Shown here one piece after another: positions 6,835-16,697 of a DNA stretch of 64,000 nucleotides. Both the position numbers and the translations under genes were made by a program. Source of the stretch: an uncultured Clostridia bacterium (GTDB lineage: Bacteria; Bacillota; Clostridia; Christensenellales; DTU072); the NCBI GenBank assembly GCA_944372095.1, contig CALVYG010000002.1, positions 1 to 64,000 on the forward strand. Reading direction: 5' to 3'. The notes under the pieces are model-generated. The model was given only the letters and a program-made list of their open reading frames with translations, did no database searches and was not told the origin of the DNA. Each line of letters opens with the position of its first letter. Positions within the stretch are counted from its first letter, which is position 1.

Positions 6835-6863
6835 TTCGGATTTTTTATTGAAAACGGTAATAT
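6835..6863 (+). promoter_or_regulatory. possible weak promoter of the nucleotidyltransferase gene
   Basis: TTCGGA, 17-nt spacer, TAATAT, about 70 nt before the ATG at 6934. The match is poor at the -35 box; it is the best candidate in the gap. Confidence 0.3.
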
Positions 6864-6933
6864 GATTTTCTTTCTCCGCAAAGGGTATAAATTTACGTCC
6901 GTCGGCAATAATCCCGGAATAAGGAGAACTATT

Positions 6934-7644
6934 ATGAAAGCAGTGATTATGGCAGGCGGAAAAGGTACAAGGCTTATGCCTTTGACTCGGAACCTTCCGA
7001 AACCTATGGTAAATCTTATAGACAAACCGGTACTCGAACACGTTATAAATCTTTTACGTAAACACGGCGTTTACGAAATAGCAATCACATTGGGGTATCT
7101 TGCCGACCGCGTTATTTCCTACTTCGGAAACGGTGAAAATCTCGGCGTCAATCTGACTTATTATGTTGAAGAAGTGCCTCTCGGAACGGCGGGCGGCGTA
7201 AAAAAAGCGGCTTCGTTCGTAGGCGAAGACTTTTTTGTTCTTTCAGGCGACGCTTTCAGCGAAATCGACCTTACCAAAGCCGCAGCTTTCCACAGAGAAA
7301 AAAATTCCCTGTTCACGCTCGTCGTGCAACCGCACCCGAATCCTTCCGCTTTCGGCGTTACTCAGATTGATTTCGAAAACCGCGTCACGGGCTTTATCGA
7401 AAAACCGGCGTCGTCTCAGCCTGCTCTCGTCAACACGGGAATTTACGTCATCAATAAAAAAATCCTTTCCCTCATTCCCGACGGATTCTACGATTTCGGA
7501 AAAGACCTCTTACCCCGTCTCGTGCACACGGCTTACGCTTACGTCGATTATTCCTATTGGTCGGATATAGGCACTTTGCCGTCGTATTACGAAACAAATA
7601 AATACCTCGCAGAAAAGCTTGTTAAGGTTCCTCAACAAACGTAA
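6934..7644 (+). CDS. NDP-sugar nucleotidyltransferase
   Basis: A 236-residue nucleotidyltransferase. It opens with the signature MKAVIMAGGKGTRLMPLT followed by LPKPMVNLIDKPVLEHV, the nucleotide- and metal-binding loop of the family. FVLSGDAFSEID (about 100-111) carries the metal-binding acidic residue, and FIEKPASSQPALVNTGIYV is the sugar-phosphate binding region. The enzyme should join a sugar-1-phosphate to a nucleotide with release of pyrophosphate. The length covers only the catalytic domain, without a C-terminal beta-helix. Closest in style to mannose-1-phosphate guanylyltransferase or glucose-1-phosphate thymidylyltransferase; the substrate cannot be fixed by eye. Start chosen at 6934 because AAGGAGA lies 6 nt upstream; longer frames start inside the promoter region. 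It stands alone between divergent rnj and the phage cassette. Confidence 0.85.
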   Translation: MKAVIMAGGKGTRLMPLTRNLPKPMVNLIDKPVLEHVINLLRKHGVYEIAITLGYLADRVISYFGNGENLGVNLTYYVEEVPLGTAGGVKKAASFVGEDFFVLSGDAFSEIDLTKAAAFHREKNSLFTLVVQPHPNPSAFGVTQIDFENRVTGFIEKPASSQPALVNTGIYVINKKILSLIPDGFYDFGKDLLPRLVHTAYAYVDYSYWSDIGTLPSYYETNKYLAEKLVKVPQQT

Positions 7645-7704: not shown

Positions 7705-7738
7705 AAGCAGGGCTGTCCCGAACGGGACAGCCCTGCTT
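7705..7738 (+). terminator. strong hairpin between nucleotidyltransferase gene and phage cassette
   Basis: Perfect 15-bp stem AAGCAGGGCTGTCCC / GGGACAGCCCTGCTT with a GAAC loop. Followed on the plus strand by a moderately T-rich tail (TATAATCTTTT). It probably ends the nucleotidyltransferase transcript. It is also where transcripts of the convergent phage cassette would stop, though the minus side lacks a T-run. Confidence 0.65.
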
Positions 7739-7757: not shown

Positions 7758-8027
7758 TTACTGATTTTCTTTTGTCGTGTCGGCAGTCTTTTTTTCATCC
7801 GCGCCTGCCGCGTCTTTATTCTCTCCTACATGCAACGCGTTCTTTATATCCGCTATGTCCGAACGGATTTCCGCTATCATTTTGAGTTTGTCCGCAAGCG
7901 CGTCTATCGTTGACTGGTACTTGTCTTCCCTCTCTTTGCTTTCTTTTATCTGTTTATAGAAAAGTACGACAAACAATACCGCCCATATCCCGGACTGCGT
8001 CGCCATGTTCAACAGGTTTTCCCACAT
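7758..8027 (-). CDS. BhlA/UviB-family holin-like protein
   Basis: An 89-residue protein with one N-terminal membrane segment (about residues 10-27, SGIWAVLFVVLFYKQI), followed at once by a charged coiled-coil (KESKEREDKYQSTIDALADKL) and an acidic, alanine-rich tail. This layout, including the W-AVLF core and RE-KY after the membrane helix, is that of BhlA/UviB holin-like peptides found in prophages and bacteriocin loci. Holins form lesions in the membrane that let a muramidase reach the wall; no muramidase is encoded nearby. Strong GGAGGG ribosome site. Last gene of the phage cassette. Confidence 0.75.
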   Translation of the reverse strand: MWENLLNMATQSGIWAVLFVVLFYKQIKESKEREDKYQSTIDALADKLKMIAEIRSDIADIKNALHVGENKDAAGADEKKTADTTKENQ

Positions 8028-8038
8028 CTTCCCTCCGT

Positions 8039-8125
8039 TTACGGATTCGTCATTCCGTCTATCTTTTCCGTCAGTATCAGAATCCGCCTTATGATTTCGT
8101 TAAGTTTATTTTCAATTTGCTCCAT
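8039..8125 (-). CDS. 28-residue micro-ORF before the holin
   Basis: ATG at 8125 preceded by a near-perfect GAGGAGG site with 5 nt spacing. The frame runs 28 codons to a TAA at 8039 and encodes MEQIENKLNEIIRRILILTE followed by eight more residues, an amphipathic helix of heptad character. It starts inside the last 14 nt of the propeller gene and ends 11 nt before the holin start. The spacing, ribosome site and overlap are those of a real phage gene. It recalls XhlA-type small helical partners of holins but is much shorter and has no membrane segment. Confidence 0.55.
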   Translation of the reverse strand: MEQIENKLNEIIRRILILTEKIDGMTNP

Positions 8126-9596
8126 ATTTCCTCCTCTCTACGGTTTCGTATTCTATTTCAAATCCGTCAAGAATAAATTCCGGCGCAAAACTCGTGATTT
8201 TTATTTTTACTCTCTCTCCGCGTGCGTTTACCGCAACCGTTTGCATTCGCGTGCTTCCGCTCAATTCGTATCCGTATTCTTTATCGGACAAAACAACCGT
8301 TAATTTTATGTCGCTTGCCGTCCGTATATTGACTTTTCTCACGGTTACGTCTTCCCCTTTATCTCCGACGGTAATGTCCGGACTTGCCCACCTTATTTCG
8401 GAATATCCGTTATATATCTTTCCGTCATCGGTGAACACTGAAAGGTTCATTTCTCTGTATCCCGGCGTATTTACGAGAAACAGATAGCTTTTTCCGTTAA
8501 TAAAACACGGCACAAAATCGGCTACGTCAACGCCGCGTATAATATCCGCTCCTCCTCCCGTTCCTATCATCATTCCGAGAATACCGTTGTTTTTAATGCA
8601 ATGCGATTCGTCTCCGACGGTTCCTCCGTCCGTGTGTAGCTTTGCGGCGACATAATACGTTCCTCCGTAGCATACTCCCGCCGCATACGCTTTGTTTTCT
8701 ATAAGCGTAAATTCGTCCTGCCATTCCTTGGACACGGTTGTTCCTTTTACCGAATAAAATCCGTCTTCGCTGAGAAAATATATTTTATCGTTCCACATCC
8801 CTATCGTTTTAGGATACAGCGGACTGTGGGAAAAATAAATTCTCGTCAGAGTGTAATCGTTCAAATCTTTATAACCCGTAAGACGGTAAATCGCATAATC
8901 GCGGAATATATACAGCGCGTCGCCGCAGACAAGAGTCTTTCTGAGCGCGCCTCCTTCGTCCGGAAAAACTATACTTCCCGCTCCCGTGGTTATATCCTTC
9001 CAGCCCGTCGGGTCAAGATTGGAACTCCACCGAAGAGTATTCCCCGCACCCTTTTCCGCGCCGTAAATTCTTTCGTTGTATACGCTCGTTCCTATAAGCG
9101 CGGGGCCCGTTGTCGTCGTAACCTCCGTTCCGTCGTAAATTGAAATATTCCCGAGATGGTCGAAAAAAAGCAGTACGTCTTCTCCGTCGTAATGGAAGTT
9201 CATGATTTCCGTCGAATTTGCCGTGGGAACGTTTAATTTATGCATCGTCGTATCCACGCCTATTTTTGCCTCGTATACGTCACCGTTATTGAGATGAAAA
9301 ATCATTCTGTCGTCGTTCGCGTCGGTTTCGTAATTATGTTTTTTGTATACAGTCGCATACCGTATCCCGCTTCCCGCAACGACTCCGGACGGAAGAAGAT
9401 AATCTCCTATTCTTGCTACGCCCACTCCGTACGTCCTCGAAATTCTTCCGTTCAGCAGCCTTATATTACAGCCATATTTGGTGTTTCCCAGTCCGAGCGT
9501 ATCGTCTGCGGAATTCCCGGCAAGATTTGAAAATTTCTTTACCGTATATCTTTTACTTTTTATTTCCGGCAGTTCGTGAATGAATATTTTGTTCAT
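8112..9596 (-). CDS. phage beta-propeller tail-hub/DNA-stabilisation-like protein (gp10-like)
   Basis: A 494-residue protein that is almost wholly beta-strand, with blade-like repeats: strands such as YNERIYGAEKGAGNTLRWSS, DALYIFRDYAIYRLTGY and DKIYFLSEDGFYSVKG recur at roughly 45-60 residue intervals. A final immunoglobulin-like stretch follows (about 415-490). Position and length fit P22 gp10 (packaged-DNA stabilisation/tail hub, a propeller of about 470 residues) lying after coat and gp4. In P22 this protein closes the portal after DNA packaging. Called from architecture and gene order, not from conserved residues. Its start overlaps the preceding gene by 4 nt. Confidence 0.55.
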   Translation of the reverse strand: MNKIFIHELPEIKSKRYTVKKFSNLAGNSADDTLGLGNTKYGCNIRLLNGRISRTYGVGVARIGDYLLPSGVVAGSGIRYATVYKKHNYETDANDDRMIFHLNNGDVYEAKIGVDTTMHKLNVPTANSTEIMNFHYDGEDVLLFFDHLGNISIYDGTEVTTTTGPALIGTSVYNERIYGAEKGAGNTLRWSSNLDPTGWKDITTGAGSIVFPDEGGALRKTLVCGDALYIFRDYAIYRLTGYKDLNDYTLTRIYFSHSPLYPKTIGMWNDKIYFLSEDGFYSVKGTTVSKEWQDEFTLIENKAYAAGVCYGGTYYVAAKLHTDGGTVGDESHCIKNNGILGMMIGTGGGADIIRGVDVADFVPCFINGKSYLFLVNTPGYREMNLSVFTDDGKIYNGYSEIRWASPDITVGDKGEDVTVRKVNIRTASDIKLTVVLSDKEYGYELSGSTRMQTVAVNARGERVKIKITSFAPEFILDGFEIEYETVERRKYGAN

Positions 9597-10117
9597 ATCT
9601 CCACCTTCCGCAAATTAACGCTTCTGACTTCTCGCGTCACATTTTCGACAGCGGACGAAAACCTTTTGTCGTACGTTTCCGCCTCCTTATAAAATCCTTT
9701 ACGGTAACAGTATTCTCCCGCCGTACCGAGCGCCAGCATCGTAACGTTGTATTTAGGCGGCAAATCTATTTCGTCATTCAGATTCGCGGGCGCGGCAAAG
9801 TACGAATACGTCACTTCCGCTTCTCCGTCGAAGTTTACCTTTATCCCGTCGCGTTCTTCGTGAAAAGGCATTTTCTCCTCTTCGTGTACCACCTTGAATA
9901 TGCGTTTGACTTTCCTTGAAAAATCCGAATATACTATTTTCCCGTTTATCGCAACGGCTTTTTCCGCGGTCTTTACATCGGTAAATTCTCCGCACAGACG
10001 CAACAAGGTTTCTTTCCCGCAATCCGTCATCAGACTTTGCTCGTCTCCCGTTACGTCAAAGTCCAGTTCCGTTTTCGTAAACTCCGACGCCTTTTTCAGA
10101 ACATCTTTCAATGTCAT
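9593..10117 (-). CDS. phage head-completion/connector-like protein (gp4 position)
   Basis: A 174-residue protein starting MTLKDVLKKASEFTKTELDF. The N-terminal helices, a beta-rich middle (KIVYSDFSRKVKRIFKV, GEAEVTYSYFAAP) and a helical C-terminus (LALGTAGEYCYRKGFYKEAETYDKRF) resemble gp6/gp4-type head-to-tail adaptors. In many such proteins a helical tail with aligned tyrosines packs under the portal. It sits directly before the propeller gene with a 4-nt overlap, the position of P22 gene 4. No catalytic motif is visible. Confidence 0.5.
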   Translation of the reverse strand: MTLKDVLKKASEFTKTELDFDVTGDEQSLMTDCGKETLLRLCGEFTDVKTAEKAVAINGKIVYSDFSRKVKRIFKVVHEEEKMPFHEERDGIKVNFDGEAEVTYSYFAAPANLNDEIDLPPKYNVTMLALGTAGEYCYRKGFYKEAETYDKRFSSAVENVTREVRSVNLRKVEI

Positions 10118-10129
10118 ATCACACCCCCG

Positions 10130-10450
10130 TCACAGACGGGATAGACGGAGTCTCCGCGAATATTCGTTCTCTATTTCGTCTTTGACTTTTTTATTGCTTT
10201 CGCGCTCTTTCTTCGCATTGTGCCTGTCTATGTCTTCAAGCACTTTTTCTGCGTTTTCAATACGCGTTTCGTAAACGTAATCAAGCGTTCTTACGTCGAG
10301 TTCGTCATACGGTATTACCGATTGATGTACCCCGAAAGCCGTTAAAACGTATTTTTGCAGAACTGTATCGAAGTATATTTCGTAATTTTTGTTTATTTCT
10401 TTTACCCTTTCTGCAATATCGAACAAATCGTGCGTAATTTTAATCTTCAC
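10130..10450 (-). CDS. small phage structural protein, unknown
   Basis: A 106-residue protein: a beta-rich N-terminal part (KIKITHDLFDIAERVKEINKN, YEIYFDTVLQKYVLTAFG) followed by a charged helix rich in E, K and R that ends SRRLRLSRL. It lies between coat and gp4-like genes with gaps of 26 and 12 nt. Phage genomes often place head-fibre, decoration or neck proteins here. I do not recognise a family. Confidence 0.6.
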   Translation of the reverse strand: MKIKITHDLFDIAERVKEINKNYEIYFDTVLQKYVLTAFGVHQSVIPYDELDVRTLDYVYETRIENAEKVLEDIDRHNAKKERESNKKVKDEIENEYSRRLRLSRL

Positions 10451-10476
10451 TCCGCCCTCCCGCGTTATTTGCTTAA

Positions 10477-11643
10477 TCAGCCTTCGCTTGCCGATGCGCT
10501 GTAAGTGAGTTTAGCCTGCGCTTTCGGTCTGCGACAAATCAGGTTGCAATATTTGACGAGAGTCGCAGTGTACGCCGCTTTGCCGTAAATCGGTCGGAGA
10601 ATTTCGTGCGTGCTGCCTTCAACCCAACTCCAATCCGCAAGCTGCGCCATAATAAAGTCTTTCGTGTTAAGGAAGAACATCGTGTTATCTTCGATAAACG
10701 GTTCTGCATAAACGGGAATTCCGTTGAATCCCGGCGCCTTGAAATCTCCGTCGCTGAGGGTTTCGATATTCAGGTGCGCAGTGTTCATAGAATCGATATA
10801 CTTCCTTCTCATCGTGTACGAACCGAGTATCATATCCGGTCTCTCCGCGCCGTTTTCTTCCATTCTGTCCACAACGCTCTGTAAAGTGCTGGAATCAACC
10901 GCGCTTTCCGTATATTCGGACGGCAACGCATATCCTATTACCGAACGCGTATTGCCGTAAAGGTTTATTCCGCCGCCGCTGAAAATATAGGGTATTCCGT
11001 ACAGCTCGCATTTGTAGCTTCCGCTGATAACGAGGTTCGTTCCGCTTGTTACGCTGCTCGCTACGGATTTATCGAGCTTAACGGTGCTGTTCGCTTTGTC
11101 CACGAAAGTGATTCTGCACCCCGTCATTACCGCACTGTTTCCGGACATCAGGTCAACCACCATACCTTCTATTACGTTGCGCGTATGGTCTACTTTTATC
11201 GTCATCGAACTTGTTCCCGCCGCAGTCATACTCGCAAGTATTCCGTCTCCGTTCTGGAATAACATTCTGCGCATATTGTATTTCGCAGAATCGAGCAACG
11301 TATCGATTTCGTAGTTGAGTACGTCGATTGCTCCGCCCGCTCCGTCGTTTACTCTGAGCAATTTGTCGCTGATTTCGAGATTTCCGTAGATGTTTACAAG
11401 GGGCGCTTTGAAATTCAACAAAGTAGGCGCGCTCGTTGCGGGCAGATTTCCCGTTTCTTCCGTACACGCCACGCCGCCGTTTATTCCTATTCGGCAAGGC
11501 GCGATTATGTCCTTTCCGTAGACGTTCGCTCCCGATTTTACTACTTTTTTATAAAACGCACTCGTTTTTTCGTTCAGACTGGACGATACCACGTCAAGAT
11601 ATACCGAACGTAAAACCTTGTCCATATTTATAACGTCAATCAT
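10477..11643 (-). CDS. phage major capsid protein (HK97 fold, P22-like)
   Basis: A 388-residue protein. An N-terminal arm (VLRSVYLDVVSSSLNEKTSAF) precedes a spine-helix region (LNYEIDTLLDSAKYNMRRML, about 110-130). A beta insertion at about 145-225 could be an I-domain-like module. The P-domain to A-domain region contains DRMEENGAERPDMILGSYTMRR, GIPVYAEPF and NTKDFIMAQLADWSW near residue 340. The last of these is a common pattern at the end of HK97-fold coat proteins. It follows a scaffold-like gene, as in P22. Ribosome site AAGGAGAAA before the ATG. Confidence 0.8.
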   Translation of the reverse strand: MIDVINMDKVLRSVYLDVVSSSLNEKTSAFYKKVVKSGANVYGKDIIAPCRIGINGGVACTEETGNLPATSAPTLLNFKAPLVNIYGNLEISDKLLRVNDGAGGAIDVLNYEIDTLLDSAKYNMRRMLFQNGDGILASMTAAGTSSMTIKVDHTRNVIEGMVVDLMSGNSAVMTGCRITFVDKANSTVKLDKSVASSVTSGTNLVISGSYKCELYGIPYIFSGGGINLYGNTRSVIGYALPSEYTESAVDSSTLQSVVDRMEENGAERPDMILGSYTMRRKYIDSMNTAHLNIETLSDGDFKAPGFNGIPVYAEPFIEDNTMFFLNTKDFIMAQLADWSWVEGSTHEILRPIYGKAAYTATLVKYCNLICRRPKAQAKLTYSASASEG

Positions 11644-11664
11644 AATTTTTCTCCTTGTATCAGA

Positions 11665-12213
11665 TTATTTTAGTTTTTCGATAATCGCTTTTGCGATTTC
11701 TCCCGCCTCCGCTACCGTTGAAGGTTTGTAAGGAGGCATTGCCGGGCTTTCTCCGCCCGCCGGGAATACTACCGGTACTTCTACTTTCTTTATCTTCTCT
11801 ATATATCCGTTTATTACCGCTTCCCGGTTCTTTCCGTCGCTTAAAACTCTGTCAACGACTTCGGAATTCTCTGCCATCTGTTCGGGAGTAAGCATTTTTT
11901 CGTTGAGTACGCCTATAAGCGAAAGTTCAATTCTGTTTCCCGTCTCCGTTTCCGCCCTGCGCGCCGCCTCTTCGAGAAGCTCGGGCGCAATGTTGAATTT
12001 ACGCGTCAATTCTTTTTTTTGCTCCTCTATGCTTCTGCCTGTTTCTCCGTACGTCTTTTCGTATTCTCTCAGTCTTTGACTCCTTCTCGTGAACTCGCTT
12101 TCAAGCGCGTTGTACGCTTTAAGCAGTTCCTCCGGTCCGGAAAATTTTCCGTAGGAATTTTCCGCAATTTTTCCTTCTTCTGCGGGATTGACGAAAGTTT
12201 GTTCCTGGTCCAT
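11665..12213 (-). CDS. capsid scaffolding-like protein
   Basis: A 182-residue, strongly helical, charged protein: EELLKAYNALESEFTRRSQRLREYEKTYG, then EEQKKELTRKFNIAPELLEEAARRAETE and a C-terminal SPAMPPYKPSTVAEAGEIAKA segment. It precedes the coat gene by 21 nt, the usual place of the internal scaffold that guides procapsid assembly and leaves before packaging. Assignment rests on position and composition; sequence conservation in scaffolds is low. Confidence 0.65.
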   Translation of the reverse strand: MDQEQTFVNPAEEGKIAENSYGKFSGPEELLKAYNALESEFTRRSQRLREYEKTYGETGRSIEEQKKELTRKFNIAPELLEEAARRAETETGNRIELSLIGVLNEKMLTPEQMAENSEVVDRVLSDGKNREAVINGYIEKIKKVEVPVVFPAGGESPAMPPYKPSTVAEAGEIAKAIIEKLK

Positions 12214-12232
12214 ATTTTATTTTCCTCCGTTT

Positions 12233-14047
12233 TTAAGCGTTGTTTCCCGCAATCATCGCGCGGTGTTCCGCAATATGATTGCCGAGAATTTGTTTTTCAG
12301 TCTCTCCGATTCCCGATGCGTCCGACAACAGATACGCCGTATGCTCGGCAATATGAATTTCGTGGTCGTCGAGATTGTCTGTCTTCAACCGTTCTTTTCC
12401 GACCGATTCGTTCTCTTTTGCCGCCCTGCCGCGGTGTAATTCGTCTGTGTTTCGGGTTGTGGCGAATCCTTCGCATCCGAGTAATTCAAGTAATTTTCTC
12501 TTGGATTCGTCGCTTATGTTCCCGTCTTTGTCCGCAAGCAGGTTCATTTCGCAAATTTCTTTTGCCAATCCGCGTCTGTCCGTGAGCGAATTTATCTGAC
12601 CGTCGTCGAGATTGAAAACTATGTCGTCCGCCGAAATGTCGCTTGCCCTGAACGCCGCGCTTTCTCCGTAAGAAGAATTTTCCACGGCGGCAAGTCTTTC
12701 GTCGGTGGCAAACTGTTTGTAAATGCGCAGAATTTTCGCCGCAACCGCTCGCTCGGCAGTCCTTATGCTCTCGGTTGTGACACAGAGTCTCGCATTGCTC
12801 TGTTCCATAATAATGTTAAGCGCGGCTCCGCTGTAATTAAGCCCCGTAAACGCTCCCGTAACAAGAAAATCGTTTACTCCGCTTACCGTAACGAATTCTT
12901 TGAGCAGCCTGTCCTCTTCTTCGCCGAATTCCTGGGGAACCGAACCGAAATTCACCATTTCGGGCTTTTCGCATCCTTGCCTGTAAATTATAACTTTCCC
13001 CGGCGCTATTCCCTCTTCGTCGAGGTCGTCGACGTCCACGCTTCCGTCTTCCGCCAAAAGCACTCCTGCCGTAAGGCGGTTGAAAAATTCGTGTTTACGG
13101 TTTTTCACCGCGTTATAAGCTTTCTGAATAGGTATCATTCTTTCCACGAGACTTCCGCCGAAAAATGACGCCGGCGCGGGTATGGATACCTGCCTTACAA
13201 ACGGAAATCCCCTCCTTCCGCCGCTCTCCGTTTCGTACGGAAGCGCTCCGTCGTATAACACTTTGTCTGCGGCGACTATAAGCAATCTTCCTTCCGGATA
13301 TTCGGCTGTCGGCAGAGAATACCGCTCTATTACCAATACGAATCCGTCTTTTTCTTTTCCGCAGAACAGATTTTCACCGTCAAAATCCGTTCCCGTTGCT
13401 AAAACGCCCGCTTTAAGAATATCCGTTCTTATTTTCACCCCCCAGCTGTCTTCCACCGTTTTCACGGGATACGCTTTTGCGTGAATAATGCTTCTGCAAT
13501 CCTCTGTCCCCGCGGCAGAAAGGCTGTCGGGATAAATTTCCTGCGGAGGGCATACCGTCACCGTAACGTCTCCTTCCCTGAGTCCGTCTGCCGATACGGG
13601 CCTGCCTTTACTTTTATCCCAGCATATCTTATAAAATGCTGTTCCGCAGATTTCCGCCCAATAAGCGGCTTTCCCCGAAAGCGCGCGGAAATCGTTTTCT
13701 TCCCTCACGCTTCTGATGAGTTTTGTGGCAAATTTCGCGGCCATTCCGTCGCCCGGCGACGAAGACGCCGGCAGACAGCTTATTTCGCTGCTCATTCGGT
13801 TGAACTTTGCAAGCCGCGCTTCTATTATCGGCGCTATATGGTTAAATACCGACGTACTTTGCCACGGATATCTCCTCCCGACAGAACATATCGCTCCCGT
13901 CGGCAGACATTCCGCATACTGATTGCCGTTATAATAATTTAGGTTTATCAGCCACGCCCGTTCAAGCTCTTTCCTCTCCTCCGCACGTCTTGCGAAGTCT
14001 TCGAGAACCTCTTTTACTCTCTCATCGATTTTTTTATCGGAATTCAT
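12233..14047 (-). CDS. phage portal protein (P22-like)
   Basis: A 604-residue protein of the podovirus-type portal family. It begins with a helical stretch (DERVKEVLEDFARRAEERKELERAWLINL), then NYYNGNQY and a wing region with PWQSTSVFNHIAPIIEARLAKF. Later comes PFVRQVSIPAPASFFGGSLVERMIPIQKAYNAVKNRKHEF (about 255-300), the stem/clip pattern of portals, and NYSGAALNIIMEQSNARL at about 400. The C-terminal crown is helical and ends EHRAMIAGNNA. Portals form the 12-mer ring through which TerL pumps DNA. It overlaps the preceding small gene by 4 nt. Full length, no frame damage. Confidence 0.8.
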   Translation of the reverse strand: MNSDKKIDERVKEVLEDFARRAEERKELERAWLINLNYYNGNQYAECLPTGAICSVGRRYPWQSTSVFNHIAPIIEARLAKFNRMSSEISCLPASSSPGDGMAAKFATKLIRSVREENDFRALSGKAAYWAEICGTAFYKICWDKSKGRPVSADGLREGDVTVTVCPPQEIYPDSLSAAGTEDCRSIIHAKAYPVKTVEDSWGVKIRTDILKAGVLATGTDFDGENLFCGKEKDGFVLVIERYSLPTAEYPEGRLLIVAADKVLYDGALPYETESGGRRGFPFVRQVSIPAPASFFGGSLVERMIPIQKAYNAVKNRKHEFFNRLTAGVLLAEDGSVDVDDLDEEGIAPGKVIIYRQGCEKPEMVNFGSVPQEFGEEEDRLLKEFVTVSGVNDFLVTGAFTGLNYSGAALNIIMEQSNARLCVTTESIRTAERAVAAKILRIYKQFATDERLAAVENSSYGESAAFRASDISADDIVFNLDDGQINSLTDRRGLAKEICEMNLLADKDGNISDESKRKLLELLGCEGFATTRNTDELHRGRAAKENESVGKERLKTDNLDDHEIHIAEHTAYLLSDASGIGETEKQILGNHIAEHRAMIAGNNA

Positions 14048-14313
14048 TGATTTTTCTTTTCCCCTTCCTTTGATTTTTTCAATTCTTTCAAAAGTCTTTT
14101 TTTCTCTTTTTCGAGTTCTTCGTTACTCATTTTTGTCAGTTCGGAATCCTTTAATTCCATATAGGCTTTAAGCGCGGACAAGTCAGGCGGTATATGTCTT
14201 ACCGACGTTTTTTCCTTTATAAGGCGTTTTGTCCCGTCATCGTCGTAAACGTATTCGCGGTTTATTTCCTCCACGTCGTAGCCTTTCGCTTTCTTGTACA
14301 GAACTTCTATCAT
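14044..14313 (-). CDS. small phage protein between terminase and portal, unknown
   Basis: An 89-residue protein with a short beta-rich N-terminus (MIEVLYKKAKGYDVEE, NREYVYDDDGTKRL) and a very charged C-terminal helix rich in lysine and glutamate. It overlaps TerL by 1 nt and the portal by 4 nt, so it is made as part of the packaging module. Not obviously a small terminase: no helix-turn-helix is visible. Function unknown. Confidence 0.65.
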   Translation of the reverse strand: MIEVLYKKAKGYDVEEINREYVYDDDGTKRLIKEKTSVRHIPPDLSALKAYMELKDSELTKMSNEELEKEKKRLLKELKKSKEGEKKNQ

Positions 14314-15800
14314 TATTTCCCTCCACGTTTAGCCGCGGCGGCAAGTTTACGGTAATTCTTTTCTATTTCGTCAAGTTCTTTTTTTACGAACGGATTGCGT
14401 GCGCGGCTCATAACGTAATACCTGAGTTCGTCCATTGCGTGGTCGTCCTTTTTTATCGGAAGGTCGCTGTTCCCCCAATAATACCCTTTTATTTCCCTTA
14501 TCATATTCACGCAATTCTTGAAAATAAAAATCTTTGCGGGCCGAGCCGCAAACAGAGATTTTACTCTGTTTATACCGCTGAACATATCCTTGTTTACGCG
14601 GCAATCGGCTTTTATTCCGCGTTCGTAAAAAAGTTCCGCAACGCTTTTTACCGAACTCAGCGTCCGTTGCGTCGCCGCGCTGTCCATAAGTACTTCCAGA
14701 AACCCTTCTCCGTTTCTTCTCCACCCGAGCCTGTCCGCCGTTTCCTTTATTTTCTCCGCGTGATAATCGATATCTTTTCCCGCGGCGTAATGCTCTCCGA
14801 CGACATAAATATTTCCGTCGTTGTCCGAGCAGTAAAAATGCGCGCTGAGCGGATTTCTCAGTCCCGGGTCGATACTTATCGTATCCTGCCACTCGAACGG
14901 CACGTCAAACGGCTCTATAACGTGTATATCCGGTGAAAATTCGGGATACACCAATCCGCCGAACGTACGGAAATTCCCGTATCTTCTGCTGTCAAGCGCG
15001 TCCTCGGAAAGGCTTTTTGTCATTTCCTCCACTTCTTCTTTGTCGAGAAAAGGATTGTCCGCCCATTCCATTTTGACATAAAAAACTTCTTTCGACTGTC
15101 TTCGATTAAGATAGATTTCATCGTAAACCCACGTAAGCCCTTTAAGAGGAGTCATCGTGCCGAACAAGTCGCCTTTTTTGTCAAGGACTCTCATCCGGCA
15201 CTCCTCATATATATCCTGAGGCGGTTCTTCGTCAAACCATACGAAATCAAGACTCGCACCCTGAAATTTTTCTCTGCCCTGGTCTGCCGATTTGAACCCG
15301 ATTCTGGACAAACCTCCGAATACGTTTCTGACTACGACGGTATCAATGATTCCGACCGACGGATTTCCTTTCGCGCCCGTATGCATAATCACGTCCTCTA
15401 TCCACTCCGGATTAAGATATCGGAGAATTTTACATTGTGCGACGTCTCTTTGGACTTCGTAACTGACGCTGACGACCCACCCGAAAACGTTGTCTTTATT
15501 CTGTCTGTAAGGATGAATCCCCCTTGCAAGCCATACGGTTTCCACTGCTCCGCATTCGGTCTTCCCGCTGCGGTTACCGCCGAAAACCCACCTGTTACGT
15601 TTGGGACTTTTATGGAATTCCATTTGTTTAAGGTGCACTTTATCGCCCGTATTGTAACGTGACAGCGCGTCGTATTTTTCGCGCGTTTCAAGGAGTTTTT
15701 CGATTTTTCTTATGCGGTAAATCAATTCTCTGTCTTCGTCCACCGGTATTCCGCCTCCGCCGCATATATTAAACCCGTTAATTTGCGTTTGTCGGCGCAT
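14313..15800 (-). CDS. phage terminase large subunit
   Basis: A 495-residue packaging motor. Walker A GGNRSGKT is at residues 74-81; Walker B FVWFDEEPP lies near 188; the coupling motif TMTPLKG is near 217. The C-terminal RNase H-like nuclease keeps its acidic positions in ISIDPGLRNPLS (about 307), VLMDSAATQ (about 371) and KKDDHAMDELRY (about 451). Both ATPase and nuclease therefore look intact. The ATG at 15800 has no clear ribosome site. A GTG at 15743 has GGAGG 10 nt upstream and may be the true start (19 residues shorter), leaving all motifs in place. No small terminase is found upstream; the next gene is divergent birA. Confidence 0.85.
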   Translation of the reverse strand: MRRQTQINGFNICGGGGIPVDEDRELIYRIRKIEKLLETREKYDALSRYNTGDKVHLKQMEFHKSPKRNRWVFGGNRSGKTECGAVETVWLARGIHPYRQNKDNVFGWVVSVSYEVQRDVAQCKILRYLNPEWIEDVIMHTGAKGNPSVGIIDTVVVRNVFGGLSRIGFKSADQGREKFQGASLDFVWFDEEPPQDIYEECRMRVLDKKGDLFGTMTPLKGLTWVYDEIYLNRRQSKEVFYVKMEWADNPFLDKEEVEEMTKSLSEDALDSRRYGNFRTFGGLVYPEFSPDIHVIEPFDVPFEWQDTISIDPGLRNPLSAHFYCSDNDGNIYVVGEHYAAGKDIDYHAEKIKETADRLGWRRNGEGFLEVLMDSAATQRTLSSVKSVAELFYERGIKADCRVNKDMFSGINRVKSLFAARPAKIFIFKNCVNMIREIKGYYWGNSDLPIKKDDHAMDELRYYVMSRARNPFVKKELDEIEKNYRKLAAAAKRGGK

Positions 15801-15920: not shown

Positions 15921-15949
15921 TTGCTTCAATCTTGTTTTTATCATATAAT
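15921..15949 (+). promoter_or_regulatory. promoter of the biotin ligase gene
   Basis: TTGCTT at 15921-15926, 17-nt spacer, TATAAT at 15944-15949. Start expected near 15956, giving a leader of about 19 nt to the ATG at 15975. The box excludes translation from the TTG at 15921. Confidence 0.8.
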
Positions 15950-15974
15950 TTCAAATAATCTGAGAAAATTGAAA

Positions 15975-16697
15975 ATGAAAAAAAATATCGTCTTCCTGAA
16001 AGAAACAGACAGCACAAACAGCTTCCTTAAACGCAATTACCGTAATTACGACAGCGGCACCGTTGTCGTAGCGGAAAAACAACTCTCGGGTAAAGGCTCT
16101 TCGGGCAGAATTTTTTATTCCGATATTGGCGGTCTTTACGTCAGTTTCCTTCTTAAACCGCCTTATACCTTTCCCGTAAATATGCTTACTCCCCTTGCCG
16201 CCGTCGCCGCGTTCAGAACTCTCGCCCTTTTCGGCTGCCCTTCTCTTTCCGTTAAATGGGTAAACGATATTTATTCTTTCCGTAAAAAAATATGCGGTAT
16301 TCTTACCGAAAGCGTTGTTTCTCAAAATTCGTTCGATTGCGTTATCGTCGGTATAGGAATTAACGTCTGTACCCCAGAAAACAATTTCAATCCCGCAATT
16401 TCCGATATCGCATGCTCACTGTTCAAATATTCGGACAAAAATGCCGTAAAACGCGTCCTTTGCGCCCTTATCGACCAATTTTTTTCACTATACGAGAGTG
16501 CTTCCGTAAACGAAATTGCCGATTTTTATGCGGAACACTCCTTGCTTAAAGGCAAATTCGTCACCGTCAAATCCGGCAATTCCGTCGTATCGGGTATTTG
16601 CAAAGGGTTTAATTCCGATTGCAACATTATTATCGCTTCGCAAGACGGCGAAAAAATTATTTCTTCCGGCTCCGTTATAAATTTTGCCGACGTGTGA
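15975..16697 (+). CDS. birA: biotin--[acetyl-CoA-carboxylase] ligase, monofunctional
   Basis: A 240-residue biotin protein ligase. ETDSTNSFLKRN lies near residue 10, KGSSGRIFYSD is the biotinyl-AMP loop variant of GRGRRGR, VKWVNDIY with KICGILTES contains the catalytic lysine pair, and GIGINV closes the core domain. It activates biotin with ATP and attaches it to carrier lysines of carboxylases. There is no N-terminal winged helix, so this form cannot act as the BirA repressor. The ATG at 15975 is chosen because the promoter lies just upstream. Ribosome site is weak (GAGAAAATTGA). It diverges from the phage terminase gene. Confidence 0.9.
   Translation: MKKNIVFLKETDSTNSFLKRNYRNYDSGTVVVAEKQLSGKGSSGRIFYSDIGGLYVSFLLKPPYTFPVNMLTPLAAVAAFRTLALFGCPSLSVKWVNDIYSFRKKICGILTESVVSQNSFDCVIVGIGINVCTPENNFNPAISDIACSLFKYSDKNAVKRVLCALIDQFFSLYESASVNEIADFYAEHSLLKGKFVTVKSGNSVVSGICKGFNSDCNIIIASQDGEKIISSGSVINFADV

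Follow-up and report, generated by a model that had tools for sequence, protein, structure and literature searches.

Gene content of the locus

The window, a stretch of 64,000 nucleotides from an uncultured Clostridia bacterium of the order Christensenellales, carries at 7758-15800 on the minus strand nine intact open reading frames whose starts and stops overlap or adjoin one another. As an earlier note on this DNA had described, the cassette lies between two housekeeping genes: a nucleotidyltransferase gene on the left (6862-7644, plus strand), convergent with the cassette operon, and a biotin ligase gene on the right (15921-16697, plus strand). The features of the locus are listed below.

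7705..7738, no strand assigned: hairpin of 15 pairs, 10 of them G-C, between the operon and the nucleotidyltransferase gene
7758..8027, minus strand: BhlA-type holin-like protein, 89 aa (PF10960, 3.9e-16)
8112..9596, minus strand: predicted tail nozzle, 494 aa, P22 gp10 / Sf6 gp8-like beta-propeller
9593..10117, minus strand: probable gp4-like portal-nozzle adaptor, 174 aa, positioned between coat/o106 and nozzle
10130..10450, minus strand: small head protein o106, 106 aa, GTG start, conserved position after the coat gene
10477..11643, minus strand: major capsid (coat) protein, 388 aa, HK97 fold (phrog_14242, 2.6e-30)
11665..12213, minus strand: probable scaffolding protein, 182 aa, charged, positioned between portal and coat
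12233..14047, minus strand: P22-like portal, 604 aa (PF16510, 3.7e-19; phrog_156, 7.8e-35)
14044..14313, minus strand: small terminase candidate, 89 aa, without an N-terminal helix-turn-helix (HTH), overlapping the TerL stop by 1 nt
14313..15800, minus strand: large terminase TerL, 495 aa (PF03237, Terminase_6N, 1.3e-13; phrog_2, 5.9e-30)

The P22-like head gene order in full open frames, also reported earlier, is borne out by the family matches of the portal, TerL and head proteins, and one cassette product matched phrog_3287, a virion structural protein, in the PHROGs search. Overlaps of 1-4 nt join TerL to the 89-aa gene that follows it, this gene to the portal gene, and the 174-aa to the 494-aa frame, an arrangement that resembles a coupled operon. 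The hairpin, which no other terminator-like site of the region approaches in strength, is probably the terminator that closes the operon. Promoters in the cassette region showed no excess over shuffles.

The TerL active sites, described in the earlier note as intact, have their Walker A, Walker B and RuvC-like acidic residues in place in the window, and these are at least 99% conserved in 201 relatives. The AlphaFold model of the coat protein (pLDDT 84) matches HK97-type capsids, encapsulins and the RcGTA capsid 6tb9. The 182-aa product has no specific family match; its gene has a fixed place between those of portal and coat in almost every locus and evolves fast (dN/dS ~0.24), and we regard the product as the probable scaffolding protein. 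The o106 gene directly follows the coat gene in many loci and in related prophages. The 174-aa protein, for which no family match was found, is probably the gp4-like adaptor by analogy with the P22 gene order. In a sequence-only search of a library of solved structures, the cassette gave a weak coat match, one portal match and nothing more.

The description of the cassette as head-only does not hold for the 494-aa product, whose AlphaFold model (pLDDT 87) has podovirus tail nozzles as its best Foldseek matches (Pa223, 3e-22; VP1; P22 gp10, 2.7e-13; Sf6 gp8). The model identifies this protein as a gp10-like tail nozzle, and the cassette is therefore predicted to encode a stub tail. We recognised no integrase, repressor, replication genes, needle, ejection proteins, spike, fibre or endolysin in the window cassette, in agreement with the absences noted earlier (integrase near the cassette; repressor, tail fibre, ejection and lysin genes at the locus). 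The holin gene noted earlier is present, as its PF10960 match attests, and a holin-like gene occupies the same position in many loci.

A small terminase candidate without the DNA-binding domain

The cassette had been described as having no small terminase (TerS). However, 16 of 18 members of the 89-aa family encoded next to TerL match phrog_309, the terminase small subunit (best E 1.3e-7), and the small terminase was therefore missed in the earlier note. The family has the consensus KKAxGY...KxVPPDxxAxKxxLE. The window copy searched alone gave no significant match and takes its identity from family membership.

Eight members searched singly have a phrog_309 match that starts at position 195-205 of the 319 profile positions, and members found in a whole-genome search with looser frames start at 176-202. 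A prophage TerS of the same order (G062, L380) covers phrog_309 positions 129-255 and has Pfam helix-turn-helix domains at residues ~20-58, the part that is missing from the 89-aa family. When the family profile was aligned directly with one prophage TerS, no signal appeared. Taken together, the gene is most likely a small terminase minus its N-terminal DNA-binding domain, its similarity to known families being weak. The absence of this domain has been proposed as a defining character of GTA-type TerS (GTA, gene transfer agent) and offered as an explanation of random packaging (PMC6854486); TerS of FpGTA, the GTA of Faecalibacterium, is likewise without an obvious DNA-binding domain (PMC12946183). 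C5/C7, also considered as small terminase, was ruled out, as it is the phage-type late regulator.

Gene order and split loci in related genomes

We mapped ~120 loci with profiles derived from the loci themselves and found a nearly fixed gene order: regulator, divergent C1, TerL, 89-aa gene, small zinc-finger gene, portal, scaffold, coat, o106, 174-aa gene, nozzle, c2 (coiled coil) and holin. Four of these are missing from the window locus, namely the regulator, C1, the zinc-finger gene and c2. In one subclade of the window family, the 89-aa gene and o106 are placed upstream of TerL. An extra gene of ~120-370 aa stands between nozzle and c2 in f6, f17 and a number of further families, and its product is a possible receptor-binding or tail protein. 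Five loci (L084, L095, L104, L220, L358) carry two complete coat genes in tandem in one cassette, each encoding ~390-407 aa, an arrangement suggestive of a second capsid subunit. Frame damage is rare, with a split portal gene in L091 and a broken coat gene in L081. The flanking chromosome genes vary between families and are often common within genera; a congener of the window organism (G005) has the same U32, OMT, RNase J and NTP genes on the left.

Most families have the fast-evolving regulator upstream of TerL (e.g., L074:8503-9213 and L126:8453-9028). Among those sampled, 15 of 16 match phrog_36, by which the regulator beside the cassette is identified as a dedicated phage-type late regulator; no clear copy was found in the window genus. 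C1 adjoins TerL in most families. It was left out of the system because its copy in the window genome is found away from the cassette, next to an RNase G-like gene and guaA, and because relatives without the cassette also keep it.

In G000 one cassette locus is known. Several reduced genomes have TerL and the head operon at separate, intact loci. TerL stands without adjacent head genes in G081, G099 and G312, with the portal ~45 kb, ~40 kb and ~20 kb away, respectively, and in G209 the portal is on another contig; in all four the head operon is intact at its separate locus. Six further loci (L086, L101, L107, L125, L132, L134) have TerL and C1, mostly with the regulator, and no head genes in the next 8-10 kb; their head operon may lie elsewhere, as in G081. 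Related dispersed head genes are also present in a second order, in which four genomes of family f69 have TerL, the portal and a scaffold-to-nozzle block apart from one another. In three of the four, the three blocks are on three contigs and TerL is 53-54% identical to that of the window. In one f69 genome (G497, L368:9216-11084), a lone P22-like portal gene lies downstream of the spoIIIAE-AH sporulation operon, with TerL and coat on other contigs. In G687 (L348:11511-13550), coat and scaffold-like genes stand alone near the glycolysis genes gap, pgk, tpi and pgm, and the portal is 53 kb away.

Distribution in the order

TerL was searched against 396 genomes of the host order with completeness of at least 85%. 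By our own count of rows by E-value, the 317 matches comprise 245 strong ones (E ~3e-97 or lower) and 72 weak ones (E 4e-70 or higher), the latter being other terminases or distant relatives. The ortholog is mostly single copy, with 57-76% identity in most loci listed. Strong matches span ~17 families and include genomes of 0.8-1.2 Mb; those relatives that have names are uncultured Clostridia under labels such as Christensenella, Borkfalkia, Gallimonas and Stercoripulliclostridium. Family f27 has at least 36 genomes with a strong match, most of them of 0.8-1.4 Mb.

Families f4, f11, f18, f22, f24 and f30 gave no strong TerL match in this search. Within the window's own family, G011, G018, G020 and G021 (91-96% complete) are without TerL and portal, and G010 is also among the losses. 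The cassette is thus dispensable, since it is absent from some families and from some members of the window's family.

Phage and prophage relatives

The best TerL match among GenBank phages has ~30% identity, and the coat protein has no match there. In IMG/VR, 36 contigs carry TerL at 51% identity or more, after which identity drops to 35% or less except for one short fragment. Two of the longer high-identity contigs, L168 and L181, were considered as free phages and ruled out on their chromosome-type flanks; in L168 the cassette breaks off after the coat gene, and genes for a WYL-type regulator and a DNA methyltransferase come next.

True phages at 28-35% TerL identity share the gene order and have additional genes lying between TerL, portal and coat. 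P22/Sf6-like podoviruses share with the cassette the order TerL, portal, scaffold, coat, gp4-like and gp10-like genes, the portal family and the nozzle fold; relative to them, the window cassette has a shortened TerS and no integrase, repressor, replication, ejection, spike or endolysin genes. Temperate prophages with the same head gene order are found elsewhere in the class (G763, L345/L346). Those in G763, present in two copies, have portal, scaffold, coat and o106 in common with the cassette and carry tail genes downstream, and related Clostridia prophages share the small zinc-finger gene together with o106. The cassette therefore descends from a podovirus lineage that still exists. None of the loci read contained a whole prophage carrying the cassette TerL, and none of the order genomes examined had a full prophage at the cassette, the case that would have told against the domesticated package suggested in the earlier note.

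Inheritance and selection

RpoB was found in 30 genomes, 29 of which were used for tree comparison. Out of 26 bipartitions, TerL has 17, portal 18 and coat 19 in common with RpoB, compared with 0.2 on average and a maximum of 3 for shuffled labels. The TerL tree recovers families as groups and requires close to the minimum number of changes. Mantel correlations with RpoB distances are weak (rho 0.24 for TerL, 0.28 for portal and 0.06 for coat), perhaps as a result of uneven rates, and topology was therefore used. We conclude that the cassette is vertically inherited with its host. Between the loci L069 and L073, identity is 96-97% for TerL and portal and 42-54% for coat, 174-aa protein and nozzle, a pattern that reflects exchange of the coat-to-nozzle module. 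In 28 genomes the nearest integrase on the same contig is at least 38 kb from the cassette, and none was recognised in recurrent neighbour gene clusters.

The dN/dS values, taken from those close pairs of relatives (the window itself excluded) for which they were computable, many other pairs being left out for saturation and other errors, are 0.03-0.09 for TerL, 0.05-0.15 for portal and 0.02-0.10 for coat. This check, proposed together with the earlier note, thus gave 0.02-0.15 over the three genes, which are under strong purifying selection; of the frameshifts and relaxed selection that could have spoken against domestication, we found rare frame damage and no relaxation in the head genes. 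Purifying selection is expected in an active phage too; the dN/dS values therefore count against decay, and the trees count against a phage.

Interpretation

The cassette is a nine-gene remnant of a short-tailed phage, kept intact in most families of an order of mostly uncultured gut bacteria. GTAs enclose random fragments of a bacterium's own DNA in phage-like particles. We consider it probable that the cassette represents a podovirus-type GTA-like system, derived from a P22-like phage, domesticated and vertically inherited, which would form particles, package random DNA, and release and transfer it. Domestication is proposed to have taken place at or before the base of most families of the order. 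The suggestion of a domesticated, GTA-like package is strongly supported. Among the features by which GTAs are recognised, the genes are phage-derived with intact capsid, portal and terminase, there is no integrase, inheritance is vertical, selection is purifying, the small terminase candidate is short and HTH-less, and in some genomes the genes are dispersed over several loci; for release, a BhlA-like holin gene is present and no endolysin is encoded in the cassette. The GTA reading is weakened by the lack of a clear regulator in the window genus and of c2, endolysin, spike and fibre in the window cassette, by the losses of the cassette in some families and family members, and by the weak similarity behind the TerS assignment.

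In the mechanism that we propose, coat and scaffold would form an HK97-fold procapsid, a small shell, with a P22-like portal. The small terminase, without a sequence-specific DNA-binding domain, would recruit TerL, and packaging would start at random on chromosomal DNA instead of at a pac site and presumably proceed by headful. The adaptor and the gp10-like nozzle would then close the portal as a stub tail, and the BhlA-like holin may contribute to release, possibly with a chromosomal lysin. Transfer of the packaged DNA to other cells would follow.

Of the other explanations, a domesticated particle with a different role, such as PBSX-like killing without DNA delivery or a decoy, in which packaging is incidental, is unlikely but survives best. 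The BhlA-type holin matches PHROGs annotated as bacteriocin-related, the window cassette has no receptor-binding spike, other families have possible receptor-binding proteins between nozzle and c2, and the coat-nozzle module was swapped between L069 and L073, all of which would suit such a particle. However, the ATPase and nuclease sites of TerL are among the best conserved parts, the HTH-less TerS is retained, and we saw neither a toxin gene nor a tail lysozyme gene in the cassette.

An ordinary temperate or satellite element, whose repeated infection and decay left the head block, is very improbable. Head genes in the same order do exist in class prophages (G763, L345/L346), and the coat-nozzle module is exchangeable, but the trees agree with RpoB and no host-incongruent cassette tree was found, the copy number is nearly always one, there is no integrase, no locus read holds a whole prophage with the cassette TerL, damage is rare, and the best TerL match in phage genomes is at ~30% identity. 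Nor is the cassette the head block left over from a recent prophage. The satellite-like package that the earlier note also allowed for is not supported either, as there is no integrase and inheritance is vertical over many families; a capsid-forming satellite (cf-PICI) is a mobile island with an integrase and its own regulation, and the cassette has no integrase and host-congruent trees. A functionless selfish remnant retained by chance, to which the losses in G020, G010, G011, G018 and G021 and the rare broken copies (L081 coat, L091 portal) might point, is scarcely credible given the purifying selection seen in the dN/dS values and the retention in genomes of 0.8-1.2 Mb.

Comparison with known systems

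To our knowledge, few GTAs are known outside Alphaproteobacteria. RcGTA of Rhodobacter capsulatus has a long tail and dedicated lysis and regulatory loci. Like the cassette, it is domesticated and vertically inherited and has an HK97-fold capsid and a small HTH-less TerS (107 aa in RcGTA, 89 aa in the cassette), but it is siphovirus-like, whereas the cassette encodes a podovirus portal and a predicted nozzle. PBSX of Bacillus subtilis has a contractile tail. It shares with the cassette the nature of a domesticated particle and differs in its morphology and killing role; PBSX packages host chromosome fragments (PMC12946183).

The closest comparison, made by description, is with FpGTA, a podovirus-type GTA with a proven particle, published in 2026, whose particles of ~40 nm contain 8.4-8.9 kb of random DNA (PMC12946183). 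Both have a compact operon of TerS without an obvious DNA-binding domain, TerL, portal, scaffold and capsid, together with short-tail proteins, a gut Clostridia host and no integration or replication genes. In contrast, FpGTA is near-ubiquitous in one genus and the cassette is found in most families of an order; TerS follows TerL in most cassette loci, unlike in FpGTA; and FpGTA has a second operon (baseplate, fibre, holin, endolysin), of which no counterpart was seen within the flanks read.

GTA-like packaging has been observed in the Christensenellaceae genera HGM11616 and QANA01, with no gene cluster given (PMC12946183). Our literature search, which excluded preprints and most subscription papers, found no Christensenellales GTA cluster besides that report. 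The cassette could be the gene cluster behind the packaging reported in gut Christensenellaceae.

Since a podovirus-type GTA was published before, the kind is already known. What is new is that the distribution is ancient and order-wide, that reduced genomes retain the cassette, that its loci can be split, and that a candidate cluster is assigned to a lineage in which GTA-like packaging has been reported. With a named cluster, the link to Christensenellaceae becomes testable by mapping existing virus-particle reads, and the IMG/VR contigs illustrate that sequences binned as viral can be chromosome fragments with such cassettes. The chances seem to us evenly balanced that the cassette is an ancient GTA dating back at least to the divergence of ~17 families of the order, that it serves as a DNA-exchange organ of its hosts, including those with genomes of 0.8-1.2 Mb, and that the unassigned packaged Christensenellaceae DNA in human gut viromes comes from it. 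That some of the smallest genomes of the order retain the cassette would suggest that DNA exchange by way of capsids pays even where most other genes have been lost.
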